The notes under the pieces are model-generated. The model worked only from the letters and a program-made list of their open reading frames with translations. It did not search any database and had not been told where the DNA came from. Positions 16,366-23,103 of a stretch of 23,103 nt of DNA are shown here, one piece after another. Origin of the DNA: a virus. Location of the stretch: positions 1 through 23,103 of IMG/VR virus record IMGVR_UViG_3300035698_001288; one strand, 5' to 3'. Made by a program: the position numbers and the translations under genes. Position 1 is the first letter of the stretch; the number at the start of each line of letters is the position of its first letter.

Positions 16366-17364
16366 TTAGACTACGCGGGCTTCGTCGACCTTGAGGCTGT
16401 CAACGCGGCGCATTGGAATGCCAGCACCGTTTGTCATTGTCTTGCGACCTCCGACGTCTTCCCACTTCAGGGTCGAGTCTTTGGTGAGCAGCTGGTACTG
16501 CTGACGTGCTGTCTTGCGGACAGTGCGATCCATGTAGTACGCGAGGTTCACGCCGTTCATGTTCGGAATACGCTCTTCAGCTTCAAACATCAATTGCGGA
16601 ATGTTTGCGCCTGTTGATGCATCTGCGAGCAGCAAGCTGCGATCAATGTTTGCGATGCGAACAACGAAACGCCAGTCTTTGACAACCAAGCCAAGGTCCC
16701 AGCGGTAGTGCGTCCGGTAGCCTTCCATACGACCTGCGCCGTTTGGTTCTTGGATCGTAACCTGACCTTTGTCGTTCATTTGCAAGCCGCCAGTCGAACC
16801 CTTCGGATAGATACCGAAGCAAGACTGTGAACCCCAACCGACGAGCCAGATGGATGCGTTGTCAGAACCAGTACCGCCAGCGTCGATGATGTTCTCGCCG
16901 TTTGCAGCGGACAGATCGTTGTAACGCACGTTCAGGCCGTGGAAGCGTTCTGGGTTGACTGACGAGTTACCAGCGAACAACGTGTTCGAGGCTTCTTGCG
17001 ACATTGCCTCAAGGAACGCACGATCTTCCGACAGGCGGAAGGCAGAAGTGTTCCCGTTGAGGTCAGCTTCGGCTTTGTCGATCTCGGCGTATGCTTCCAA
17101 CATACCAGTCGAGTCTGTGACCTGACCGCGAGTCGATTTGCTTGGCTGCACGTAGCCGTAAAGCTGACGCCACGTAACGTCTGGCAAGCCTGTGCGAATG
17201 GTTGAACGGTGACCAGTAACCAAGTTACCTTCCATCATCATCCAGTCGTCAAGGACTTCATTTGTTTCGTTGAGGATTTCCGCGACAACCGCGATGCTCC
17301 CGTCTGGGTCCGTTGCTTTAACAACGTCCAGCAATGTTGGGAACTTGGTATCAAGAACCGCCAT
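16366..17364 (-). CDS. Major capsid protein
   Basis: A 332-residue HK97-fold capsid protein, judged from family resemblance to the BPP-1-type capsids: N-terminal FPTLLDVVKATDPDG with ILNETNEVLDDW, then GHRSTIRTGLPDVTWRQLYG, an AYAEIDKAEADLNGN segment, a central SEDRAFLEAMSQEASNTLFAG, and a C-terminal GLVVKDWRFVVRIANID. The size agrees with podovirus capsids (T7 gp10A 345). AAGGA lies before the ATG. It follows the scaffold end by 11 bases and precedes the Bbp16-like cement gene, the same order as in BPP-1. No delta domain or protease is seen, so the separate scaffold must guide assembly. Confidence 0.9.
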   Translation of the reverse strand: MAVLDTKFPTLLDVVKATDPDGSIAVVAEILNETNEVLDDWMMMEGNLVTGHRSTIRTGLPDVTWRQLYGYVQPSKSTRGQVTDSTGMLEAYAEIDKAEADLNGNTSAFRLSEDRAFLEAMSQEASNTLFAGNSSVNPERFHGLNVRYNDLSAANGENIIDAGGTGSDNASIWLVGWGSQSCFGIYPKGSTGGLQMNDKGQVTIQEPNGAGRMEGYRTHYRWDLGLVVKDWRFVVRIANIDRSLLLADASTGANIPQLMFEAEERIPNMNGVNLAYYMDRTVRKTARQQYQLLTKDSTLKWEDVGGRKTMTNGAGIPMRRVDSLKVDEARVV

Positions 17365-17375
17365 AATCTTATTCC

Positions 17376-17606
17376 TTACTCAGCTGTGCCGTACATACGT
17401 TCGGCTTGGGTTAATGTTTGGTGCGACTGCCCTCCAGTGACATCGCCGCCCTCTTGCAGGTCTTTTGTCAGGGCGTGAAGTACCTTGACAATCTCGGGGT
17501 TGTTACCCGCGCCAGTAAGATCGAACGCCTTAAACGTATCGTCTGTAGCGCCAATTTGCAGCAACCCCTTTCTTGATCGTGGATAAAGTCTGACTAGTAT
17601 TTTCAC
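17376..17606 (-). CDS. Scaffold protein fragment 3 (C-terminal)
   Basis: The third frame of the interrupted scaffold gene. Only the part after about residue 14 (from LLQIGATDDTFKAFD) looks like the family; before it, the frame is a shadow of fragment 2. It contains GAGNNPEIVKVLHALTKDL and ends with a coat-binding helix candidate HQTLTQAERMYGTAE. No good ribosome binding site precedes the first ATG (17606), so independent translation is doubtful; production would need a +1 frame change in fragment 2 or a repaired sequence. Confidence 0.45.
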   Translation of the reverse strand: MKILVRLYPRSRKGLLQIGATDDTFKAFDLTGAGNNPEIVKVLHALTKDLQEGGDVTGGQSHQTLTQAERMYGTAE

Positions 17607-17796
17607 CGCCCAATTCGGGGAGTGCTTTTATAGCGTCTTTCCACGTTTTTTGCGTTTCATCCCATAGGGTCGCATTGGCAGCATCAGCCGCCTTGTTCGC
17701 CTCCGTTTGGGAATTAACTTGCAATTCGATAAGCCCTTTCGCCAGATCGGCGGAGGACAGTTCTTTGTTATTTATCAGCTCGAGGAAACTCGTCAT
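17530..17796 (-). CDS. Scaffold protein fragment 2 (middle)
   Basis: The middle piece of the scaffold gene, in the same frame as fragment 1 beyond its TAG. An ATG at 17796 with a weak GAAGAA upstream might allow re-initiation. Content: FLELINNKELSSADLAKGLIELQVN, then a helix with LWDETQKTWKDAIKALPELGG, which matches the middle of podovirus scaffolds. The family-like sequence ends at STIKKG; the last dozen residues (GVAANWRYRRYV) are out of frame and the true continuation is fragment 3. Confidence 0.5.
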   Translation of the reverse strand: MTSFLELINNKELSSADLAKGLIELQVNSQTEANKAADAANATLWDETQKTWKDAIKALPELGGENTSQTLSTIKKGVAANWRYRRYV

Positions 17797-17808
17797 GGTT
17801 TCTTCAGG

Positions 17809-18060
17809 CTATTCGAAACCTTCTGGGAGGGTAATGCCCTCGGCGGTAAGTGGTTCCGCTTCAGCAGTTTCTGTTTTTCCAACTTCTTTCGGAGTACCGT
17901 CTTCGTTAAGTTCAGGCTTCTCCTCAGTCGTTTCTTCTTCGGTAGTTTTCTCGGTTGTTTCTTCGCCGCCAGTCGAGATCATGCTTCCGCCGCCAGTTTC
18001 GTCTTCTGCTTCCCAAACGGGCCGCAGGTGCTTACCTACCATATCGAGAAATAGTTTCAT
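17809..18060 (-). CDS. Scaffold protein fragment 1 (acidic N-terminal)
   Basis: An 83-residue acidic piece starting MKLFLDMVGKHLRPVW, followed by a Thr/Glu-rich low-complexity part (EETTEKTTEEETTEEK) and ending LPEGFE before a TAG. A good CAGGAGA precedes the ATG, which lies 29 bases inside the upstream Bbp19-like gene. The LPEGFE motif is normally followed directly by a helix in scaffolds of this type, and the sequence after the TAG supplies that helix in the same frame. If the TAG is real and not suppressed, the product would be this fragment alone, which should not work as a scaffold. Confidence 0.55.
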   Translation of the reverse strand: MKLFLDMVGKHLRPVWEAEDETGGGSMISTGGEETTEKTTEEETTEEKPELNEDGTPKEVGKTETAEAEPLTAEGITLPEGFE

Positions 18061-18355
18061 CGTCAGTCTCCTGAATTAATGAACTGTAGAGCGACTGCGA
18101 GTGCAGGGACATTTCAGCCCTCAGTTCGGTTAAGATTTCGTACCGCCCACATAGTCGGGCTGTTTCGGTCGCCGTTTCAGCGTAGGGGGTTCGCCCCTCG
18201 CCACAGGCTGATAGTAATTCGCGGAACAAGAACCGCAGGTTGGGAGACTTTTCAATCTCCGCAAACGCTGCGGCTGTTCTACCTACGTCTTCGAGGAGCC
18301 ATTTCTTCTCCTCATCAGTCATGGTGTCCTCCTCGTCTTCGAGTTCTCGGGCCAT
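18032..18355 (-). CDS. Bbp19-like phage protein
   Basis: A 107-residue protein between portal and scaffold. The core SPNLRFLFRELLSACGEG...ETARLCGRYEILTELRAEM resembles the Bbp19 domain found in BPP-1-type phages: a short helix, a conserved Leu-x-x-Cys/Gly turn, a hydrophobic-Arg-x-G-Arg helix. Function is unknown; it is probably a minor head or assembly protein. Two starts are possible: ATG at 18355 with GAGGAAGG upstream, or ATG at 18322 (MTDEEKKWLL) with a better placed GAGGAGG. The first 11 residues (ARELEDEEDT) are acidic and dispensable-looking. The end overlaps the scaffold start by 29 bases. Confidence 0.7.
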   Translation of the reverse strand: MARELEDEEDTMTDEEKKWLLEDVGRTAAAFAEIEKSPNLRFLFRELLSACGEGRTPYAETATETARLCGRYEILTELRAEMSLHSQSLYSSLIQETDDETISRYGR

Positions 18356-18411: not shown

Positions 18412-20091
18412 TTACATTAACTGTTGCAGTGCATTCATGCCGCCGCCTACATCAGTCTCGGATAGTACCTTTGCGCCGCCAGCCAAATCTTTGCCGACCG
18501 CAGCGGATTGCGCCATATTTTCGGCTTCCAGTTCCGCGTCGTTAACTTCGCCCGCCGCTTTTCGGTCATTCAAACCCTCTGGCTTGATACCGATGTCTTC
18601 AGCGTATTGGCGCATGAGTTCGTCGATGTTCGGAACTGACTTGGCTTCCGGCCAGACAGCAGCTGCGCTACCAACGAATTGCAAATAGCGCTCGATCGTG
18701 ATCGTGCCAGATGCGCGCTGCGCGTCGGTAAGAACCGAGACAAATTCCACGTCGATTGACGCTTCGTCCAGTTCGTCTGGGATCGGCAAGAACAAGTCGC
18801 CCCGTTTCATGATCCCGAACAGCCGTTTGAGGATTGGGTTAAGCCCCTCGTCGTAGAACCGTTCTAGCACTGGGCCCAGATGCACCAGCTTTTCTTCGCG
18901 CCGTGCGTCGATCTCGGTTGCGGAACGCACAGTGTCCAACTGGGAAATCATGTTGAACAGTGAATTGTGCATCGTTTCGCGGATAGAGATAGTGTAGTTC
19001 GTAATGTCTTCGCGCAGATCGGCCATTGGGATTTGCACGTTGTAGGCTGCTTTTGCGCCGAAGTTACTGTTCGCGGTTGACGCGTAAGTGATCCCGCCAG
19101 CGCCCAAAGCTTTCGGACGGTTGCGCAGAGCTTGGTCTACGATCAGGGCTGGGCGGACCATTTTGGCGAGGCCGGAGGCACGTTCAGCAAGCATCTGTTG
19201 CAGGGCTTGTACGTCGCCAAGTGCGTCCATGGCTGGGGACGTGCCGTAACTATCGTTGCCAAGGATTTCCCAACGGTTCGTAATAGTCTTGGCCTCGTAA
19301 ACAGGGCGAACGCCGAGGTACGTGCCTGACTGGCAGCCCACTTCGAAGAACACCTCACGGAAGTCGGTGGTCAGTTTGGATAGGCCGTCTTCTCTGTTCG
19401 GCTCGATCAGGCGGATGATTTCAAATTCGGTTAGGAGGGAAGCGCCGCCCTTTTTAAATTCCTGCTTCGCTTTGATCGAAATGTTTTCTTCGCCGAACTC
19501 TTCTACCATCTGTTCTACGGTTAGAGTGAAGCGACGGACGTGGCGGTTAACGCGGTTTGAGGCGTCTTGCGCGATGAAAAACTCGCCTATCGGGTAATTG
19601 TAGCAGCGAATCACGTCGTCGAAATCTTCCTCAATACCCATTGACGCCGTGCCGAATGAGCACCACTCGAGATAGTGGAGGGCGATCGAGGTGTAGAAGT
19701 TTGATTGGGCAAGGACAGTCATCATGCGGCGAGAAGCATCGCCGAGCCAGATTGTCGCCTCGCGGGAAAGTTCTTCGTTCTTTTGCCCTTCCAGCTTCAG
19801 GCCGAACCATTTGCGCGACGGGGAGGTGATCCCGTTCATCATGCCCGAGGCCAAAGTGCGAAGCGCGATTGTGGACACGCTCGTAAGCAGTTTGGTGTTC
19901 CGGCGGTTTGCGCTCGTGGTTTCCTTTTTCCGCTGTAGGGTTGGATAGCGGCGCGGAAGGAAGTAGTCACTGATCTCGCGCCAGTGGTTGAACCACATGT
20001 TCCGCTCGAGGTCCATCTTTTTAACAATCGCCCAGTGATCCTTTTGGATTTTCACGAGGGTGTAGTTTGGCTTTTCCGTTGTATCGTACAT
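18412..20091 (-). CDS. Portal protein (T7 gp8-type head-tail connector)
   Basis: A 559-residue portal (T7 gp8 is 536). Family features: an N-terminal MDLERNMWFNHWREISDYFLPRRYP, the first helix with Trp and a Pro-containing turn; then NTKLLTSVSTIALRTLASGMMNGITSPSRKWFGL, the most diagnostic part; a wing domain in the middle; and a C-terminal helix with LDTVRSATEIDARREEKL followed by LGPVLERFYDEGLNPILKRLF, which recalls the crown of connector proteins. It forms a twelve-part ring at one capsid vertex through which DNA enters and leaves, and where the terminase docks. The ATG directly follows the previous stop (TAAATG). The C-terminal tail is Ala/Gly-rich and variable. Confidence 0.9.
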   Translation of the reverse strand: MYDTTEKPNYTLVKIQKDHWAIVKKMDLERNMWFNHWREISDYFLPRRYPTLQRKKETTSANRRNTKLLTSVSTIALRTLASGMMNGITSPSRKWFGLKLEGQKNEELSREATIWLGDASRRMMTVLAQSNFYTSIALHYLEWCSFGTASMGIEEDFDDVIRCYNYPIGEFFIAQDASNRVNRHVRRFTLTVEQMVEEFGEENISIKAKQEFKKGGASLLTEFEIIRLIEPNREDGLSKLTTDFREVFFEVGCQSGTYLGVRPVYEAKTITNRWEILGNDSYGTSPAMDALGDVQALQQMLAERASGLAKMVRPALIVDQALRNRPKALGAGGITYASTANSNFGAKAAYNVQIPMADLREDITNYTISIRETMHNSLFNMISQLDTVRSATEIDARREEKLVHLGPVLERFYDEGLNPILKRLFGIMKRGDLFLPIPDELDEASIDVEFVSVLTDAQRASGTITIERYLQFVGSAAAVWPEAKSVPNIDELMRQYAEDIGIKPEGLNDRKAAGEVNDAELEAENMAQSAAVGKDLAGGAKVLSETDVGGGMNALQQLM

Positions 20092-22445: not shown

Positions 22446-22526
22446 GAGTTAGCCCTCCTCCGGCCAAGTTAGCATACGACCCCGCGCGTAGCAAGGGGGA
22501 ATTTCGGCCGGATATGGTCGGTTCAG

Positions 22527-22555
22527 ATTATGGATGAGCCATACCGAACTGGAAA
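22527..22555 (-). promoter_or_regulatory. Candidate leftward sigma70-type promoter for the late cluster
   Basis: On the minus strand TTTCCA (22550-22555) and CATAAT (22527-22532) lie 17 bases apart, 4/6 and 5/6 matches to the sigma70 consensus. The start point would be near 22520, giving an mRNA leader of about 75 bases before terS. The -35 element lies within the palindrome at 22550-22566, as expected for a repressed or activated promoter. No other long gap exists in the leftward unit, so a promoter here is needed unless transcription enters from further right. Confidence 0.45.
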
Positions 22556-22566
22556 TCCGATTTCCA
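22550..22566. promoter_or_regulatory. Perfect palindrome, operator candidate 1
   Basis: Eight paired bases on each side of one central base: arms TGGAAATC and GATTTCCA around C. It overlaps the -35 element of the candidate leftward promoter. It has the size and symmetry of a dimeric repressor site. A related site lies 33 bases to the right. Confidence 0.5.
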
Positions 22567-22581
22567 AAAGTAAGGCTCGAT

Positions 22582-22600
22582 CCCAAAATTCGATTTCGGG
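22582..22600. promoter_or_regulatory. Imperfect palindrome, operator candidate 2
   Basis: A 19-base element with 7 of 9 pairs matching (CCC..GGG ends and AAAT/ATTT inside). It shares AAATNCGATTTC with operator candidate 1. The centres are 33 bases apart, about three helical turns, so two bound proteins would lie on the same DNA face. Confidence 0.4.
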
Positions 22601-22690
22601 AAAATTGCCTCCCTACGCGCGCGGCGGCCCCCCGCATCGTCGAACCCCCCCCGAGTCGATGTTCCTGTTTTGTTCCCGTTTGGTTGGCCT

Positions 22691-22747
22691 TTTGTCGTGC
22701 AATCAAGCCCATTGGTACTCGATAACAAAAACTTGCGGCACGACAAA
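22691..22747. repeat. Ten-base perfect inverted repeat with 37-base spacer
   Basis: Arms TTTGTCGTGC (22691-22700) and GCACGACAAA (22738-22747) are exact reverse complements, and with one bulged T they extend by two G-C pairs. The loop is too long for a normal terminator. It may be a pair of protein-binding sites or the base of a larger RNA fold. Its role is unknown. Confidence 0.5.
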
Positions 22748-22835
22748 GGGGCAACAGAGCACGATCAAAACGTGAACAAAGGGATGATTGGGCGTTTTGC
22801 TTGGCTGTTTGCCCAGTGTGATGGTGTGATTTTAA

Positions 22836-22906
22836 TTGCAATCAATCCCCCTTATTTGTCGCTTTTGGGGTTGTTATACTCGGTCATATCCTTATGTTGA
22901 TTGCAA
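22836..22906. repeat. Inverted repeat TTGCAATCAA flanking the rightward promoter
   Basis: TTGCAATCAA at 22836-22845 and its exact reverse complement TTGATTGCAA at 22897-22906 flank the candidate rightward promoter. A third copy of the inner nine bases (TGCAATCAA) is at 22698-22706 in direct orientation. Likely regulator binding sites. Confidence 0.45.
22872..22880 (+). promoter_or_regulatory. Candidate rightward extended -10 promoter
   Basis: TGTTATACT matches the extended -10 form (TGn then TATAAT with one mismatch). A -35 element at the usual distance is poor (TTATTT at 22852-22857), which is typical of extended -10 promoters. The start point would be near 22887, about 58 bases before the ATG of the plus-strand gene. 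Confidence 0.5.
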
Positions 22907-22944
22907 GGGTCGCGGCGTGTGACCTTGTTATAGGAGTTAATTGA

Positions 22945-23103
22945 ATGACATCTTACATGATCCACGTACAAACAGAGACTGGTGTGATCGCATCAATCGG
23001 CGCAAGCAAAGCAAACCTTATTACTTGGGCAAGCTCGGCAATGGCTTGGGTATTGTTCGACGATATCGGAATTGCCCAGCATCATAACGCCGCATGGGAT
23101 AGC
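22945..23103 (+). CDS. Unknown protein, first gene of rightward unit, 3' end beyond window
   Basis: 53 codons open from ATG at 22945 to the right edge, with AGGAG eight bases before the start. The product begins MTSYMIHVQTETGVIASIGA and continues with Trp- and Ser/Ala-rich TWASSAMAWVLFDDIGIAQ. It shows no signal peptide and no recognisable motif so far. It is the only plus-strand gene supported here and probably opens an early or replication-related unit. The family is not recognised and the fragment is too short to judge. Confidence 0.65.
   Translation, partial: MTSYMIHVQTETGVIASIGASKANLITWASSAMAWVLFDDIGIAQHHNAAWDS

Follow-up and report, generated by a model that had tools for sequence, protein, structure and literature searches.

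A broken PHROG 458 gene ahead of the capsid gene in a single phage record: an in-frame TAG and a +1 frame change that most likely reflect private mutation or sequence error

Between the portal gene and the major capsid gene of some short-tailed phages lies a gene of family PHROG 458, as in Bordetella phage BPP-1 (bbp18), Escherichia phage phiV10 and, by position, Burkholderia phage BcepC6B (gp07). Public records label this family "protease"; a paper on the structure of the BPP-1 head mentions no head scaffold and no protease in its main text (PMC3863775), and an intact homologue gave no meaningful match to a curated family (Pfam) or a solved structure. Changes of reading frame within phage structural genes are known from Listeria phage PSA, where true +1 shifts occur in capsid and tail genes, at a proline codon with a pseudoknot or a stop beside it (PMC5009743).

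The window analysed here is the 23,103-base virus record IMGVR_UViG_3300035698_001288, whose head and tail module is that of a short-tailed phage of the BPP-1/BcepC6B/phiV10 type. The capsid protein of the record is ∼55% identical, over the capsid protein, to that of the nearest named phages. The PHROG 458 gene occupies positions 18060-17376 of the minus strand between the portal and GP7-type capsid genes and, as expected for the family, stands directly upstream of the latter. It is split into three pieces, which are listed below together with the two breaks and the flanking genes.

18412..20091, minus strand: portal (head-tail connector) gene, intact (PF12236)
17809..18060, minus strand: piece 1, N-terminal part of the PHROG 458 gene, 83 amino acids plus TAG, from frame reading and homologue alignment
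17809..17811, minus strand: in-frame TAG, a sense codon in the aligned column of relatives, from translation and alignment
17566..17808, minus strand: piece 2, central part of the gene, frame unchanged from piece 1, extending up to STIKKG, from translation and homologue matches
17565..17571, minus strand: AAAGGGG run, site of the +1 reading-frame change, from sequence and homologue matches
17376..17564, minus strand: piece 3, C-terminal part, LLQIGATDD through to the natural stop, read in the +1 frame, from translation, PHROG and homologue matches
16366..17364, minus strand: major capsid protein gene, intact (Pfam GP7, PF20911, E 4e-125)

Some further features of the window were noted. An ORF of 107 amino acids upstream of the broken gene found no family match in PHROG and Pfam searches; within it, a stable RNA hairpin is predicted on the minus strand at 18200-18300 (z -6.0 for 60 nt and -2.5 for 101 nt). 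Positions 22446-23103, at the window end, are without a clear gene and contain several runs of C or G, including eight C at 22645-22652. At 516-942, reading frames overlap, one of them with a lipobox-like LLGACE, an arrangement which we take to resemble an Rz/Rz1 spanin pair.

The product of the broken gene is probably a scaffold, given its position, its acidic, low-complexity N-terminus and its conserved C-terminal motif. The acidic N-terminus and the motif LTGAGN..PEIV.VLHALT...A.RMYG are common to the gene and its PHROG 458 relatives of the BPP-1 bbp18 type. An earlier note on this DNA had spoken of a scaffold gene outright; that name follows from position and composition, and public records use another label for the family.

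Beyond the TAG, the frame of piece 1 resumes as PEETMTSFLELINN and continues to STIKKG. The minus strand then reads ACG ATC AAG AAA GGGG TTG CTG CAA (17580-17556), with the +1 change at AAGAAAGGGGTTG (17574-17562). If frame 0 is followed past the run, it yields GVAANWRYRRYV and meets a stop after 12 codons, while the +1 frame reads GLLQIGATDDTFKAFDLTGAGNNPEIVKVL and onwards to RMYGTAE, followed by the natural stop. In relatives, over 20 homologous proteins align with the gene in two frames; for the close homologues, the switch point falls at about 17563-17573. Homologues align to piece 2 up to STIKKG and to piece 3 from LLQIG, with zero residues missing; in five of the loci (L004, L005, L008, L010 and L017), the match to one piece runs straight on into the match to the other, as with residues 97-176 and 177-234. 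Pieces 1 and 2 together match positions 47-182 of the PHROG 458 profile (E 2e-13), and piece 3 matches positions 189-244 (E 2e-8). A match of one gene to one family in two frames is far beyond chance. Because relatives match both frames at consecutive residues and both parts belong to PHROG 458, the pieces read as one family gene with a TAG and a +1 change. Judged by its sequence, the window gene is thus a broken member of PHROG 458, its frame being interrupted at 17811-17809 and again at 17571-17565. The earlier note had placed a +1 change at AAAGGGG within one gene, and both the position and the homologue matches agree with it. It had also proposed two defects in this gene, and two breaks are indeed present; the other one, however, is the in-frame TAG and not a second frameshift.

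Relatives were gathered by scans with the capsid protein, which gave 80 viral loci and six from bacterial genomes. In all 82 loci with the upstream region present, BPP-1 and BcepC6B included, the gene preceding that of the capsid protein forms one open frame (178-311 codons, with the length measured between stops or from the end of the contig). These loci represent 54 distinct proteins at 90% identity, 35 of which match both pieces by sequence; in the rest, divergence is too great for a match to one or both pieces. Nine close homologues were read codon by codon: each has one continuous frame and a shorter run, and GGGG occurs in none of them. A search of viral contigs with the junction pattern and a scan with the joined pieces 1 and 2 revealed no near-identical relative, a search from which near-identical records were possibly omitted; the scan with pieces 1 and 2 gave no match at all. 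The sole pattern match to the junction (L082) was rejected as unrelated AT-rich sequence. Among the sequences examined, the gene is broken in this record only. The comparison of run lengths bears out the suggestion of the earlier note that the run contains one extra base, since the nine close homologues are continuous with a shorter run and no relative examined is split.

A programmed +1 shift would require tRNA-Gly on GGG to slip by one base on GGGG, to re-pair with GGG and to go on in the frame of piece 3. The GGG-G sequence would permit complete re-pairing after such a slip, four-base runs serve as a +1 motif in PRFect (PMC10885494), and the shifts of phage PSA provide a precedent. However, the nine close homologues lack the site, and GGG-G occurs in phase at 18 sites of intact genes, two of them GGG-GTT, which are read normally. 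PRFect demands for its +1 sites an A-site codon rarer than the +1-frame codon (PMC10885494). The waiting codon here, GTT, is neither a stop nor rare (20.5 per thousand codons) and is commoner than TTG (18.1), so the site fails this prefilter. A weak hairpin lies downstream of the run, but its z depends on the stretch chosen (about -2 for 52 or 102 bases, -1.4 for 60), 9% of nearby 60-nt stretches reach a z of -1.9 or below, and no structure downstream of the site is shared by eight relatives. In addition, the TAG ∼240 bases upstream would need readthrough as well and would stop most ribosomes first, so that expression would be blocked before the shift site is reached. We therefore regard programmed shifting as highly improbable. 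The earlier note had offered a programmed +1 (or -2) shift as one explanation and had proposed looking for a conserved slippery site and downstream structure; neither is conserved, and programmed recoding is not supported. An elaborated version, in which a lineage-specific combination of TAG readthrough and +1 slippage on GGGG would produce little full-length head-assembly protein and more of truncated forms, strikes us as extremely improbable.

The first break could be accounted for if this phage decoded TAG as an amino acid, and only one of the other listed genes ends in TAG. At the TAG column, close relatives mostly have Leu, Pro, Ile or Val. The other TAG (248-246), however, directly precedes GGAG and an ATG, as at a normal gene end. 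This gene lies at 246-500 and shares its frame with the following ORF (233-3), which has a Shine-Dalgarno sequence of its own. No tRNA genes were found in the window, which represents part of a genome, and reassignment would leave the frame change unexplained. Since another gene terminates in TAG, with a Shine-Dalgarno sequence behind it, we hold reassignment to be highly unlikely.

Alternatively, translation could restart after each break, and the protein would consist of two or three separately made pieces still able to assemble. Possible starts are an ATG at 17796 in piece 2, shortly after the TAG, and a GTG at 17606 for piece 3. Against this, neither is preceded by a good Shine-Dalgarno sequence, the start in piece 2 is not conserved, initiation at the GTG would prepend 13 unrelated residues, and a split gene was found in no relative read. 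Restart thus seems very unlikely.

Because the gene is whole in every comparable relative examined and no frameshift signal is held in common, a private mutation or a sequence error, not a programmed frameshift, is most likely, and the site is very probably a single-record lesion and not a recoding site. One surplus base in the short purine run of this probable scaffold gene would make the ribosome exit the true frame at the run and terminate 12 codons on; the upstream TAG would halt translation at codon 84 regardless. Piece 3 retains 44-55% identity to close homologues, which points to a break that either happened recently or is not real.

The frame change and the TAG could both be consensus errors of an unverified virus contig, which we consider slightly more likely, or recent, real loss-of-function mutations in a defective genome or provirus. 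The contig without an independent copy, the short homopolymer and the still well-conserved pieces speak for error. Background indel rates are reported as under 2 per 100 kb for viral assemblies based on short reads, against ∼23 per 100 kb for long-read assemblies after polishing (PMC6487183); one indel in ∼22.4 kb of coding sequence lies between these rates. Among those genes for which the fetched loci (about 11-22 kb) contain homologues, only the broken one showed a frame split on its own strand, and the remaining listed genes of the window are open. Record-wide homopolymer miscalling is not evident, and longer runs within genes stay in frame: the listed genes hold 32 homopolymer runs of at least five bases and 185 runs of four, and the AAAGGGG site alone is off frame, which argues against a generally homopolymer-error-prone record.

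The broken gene makes up 3.1% of the coding length, and two breaks in so short a gene are mildly surprising. The chance that two random disruptive changes share a gene, whichever it is, is ∼9%; that both fall into this one is ∼0.1%, a post hoc figure. Both breaks would be accounted for by a defective provirus or by locally thin read coverage. If the lesions are real, full-length protein is not made and particle assembly would fail without the help of another phage. The record should be marked as having a broken head-module gene, and annotation as two or three proteins should be avoided. More generally, a slippery-looking run in one virus record does not amount to recoding when the relatives examined all have the gene whole.

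In comparison with known systems, the locus resembles Listeria phage PSA in having a +1 frame change in a gene of the structural module. Unlike in PSA, it has no such proline codon or adjacent stop, and the site is not common to relatives. From the PHROG 458 relatives read, all with one continuous frame, the window gene differs by its two breaks.
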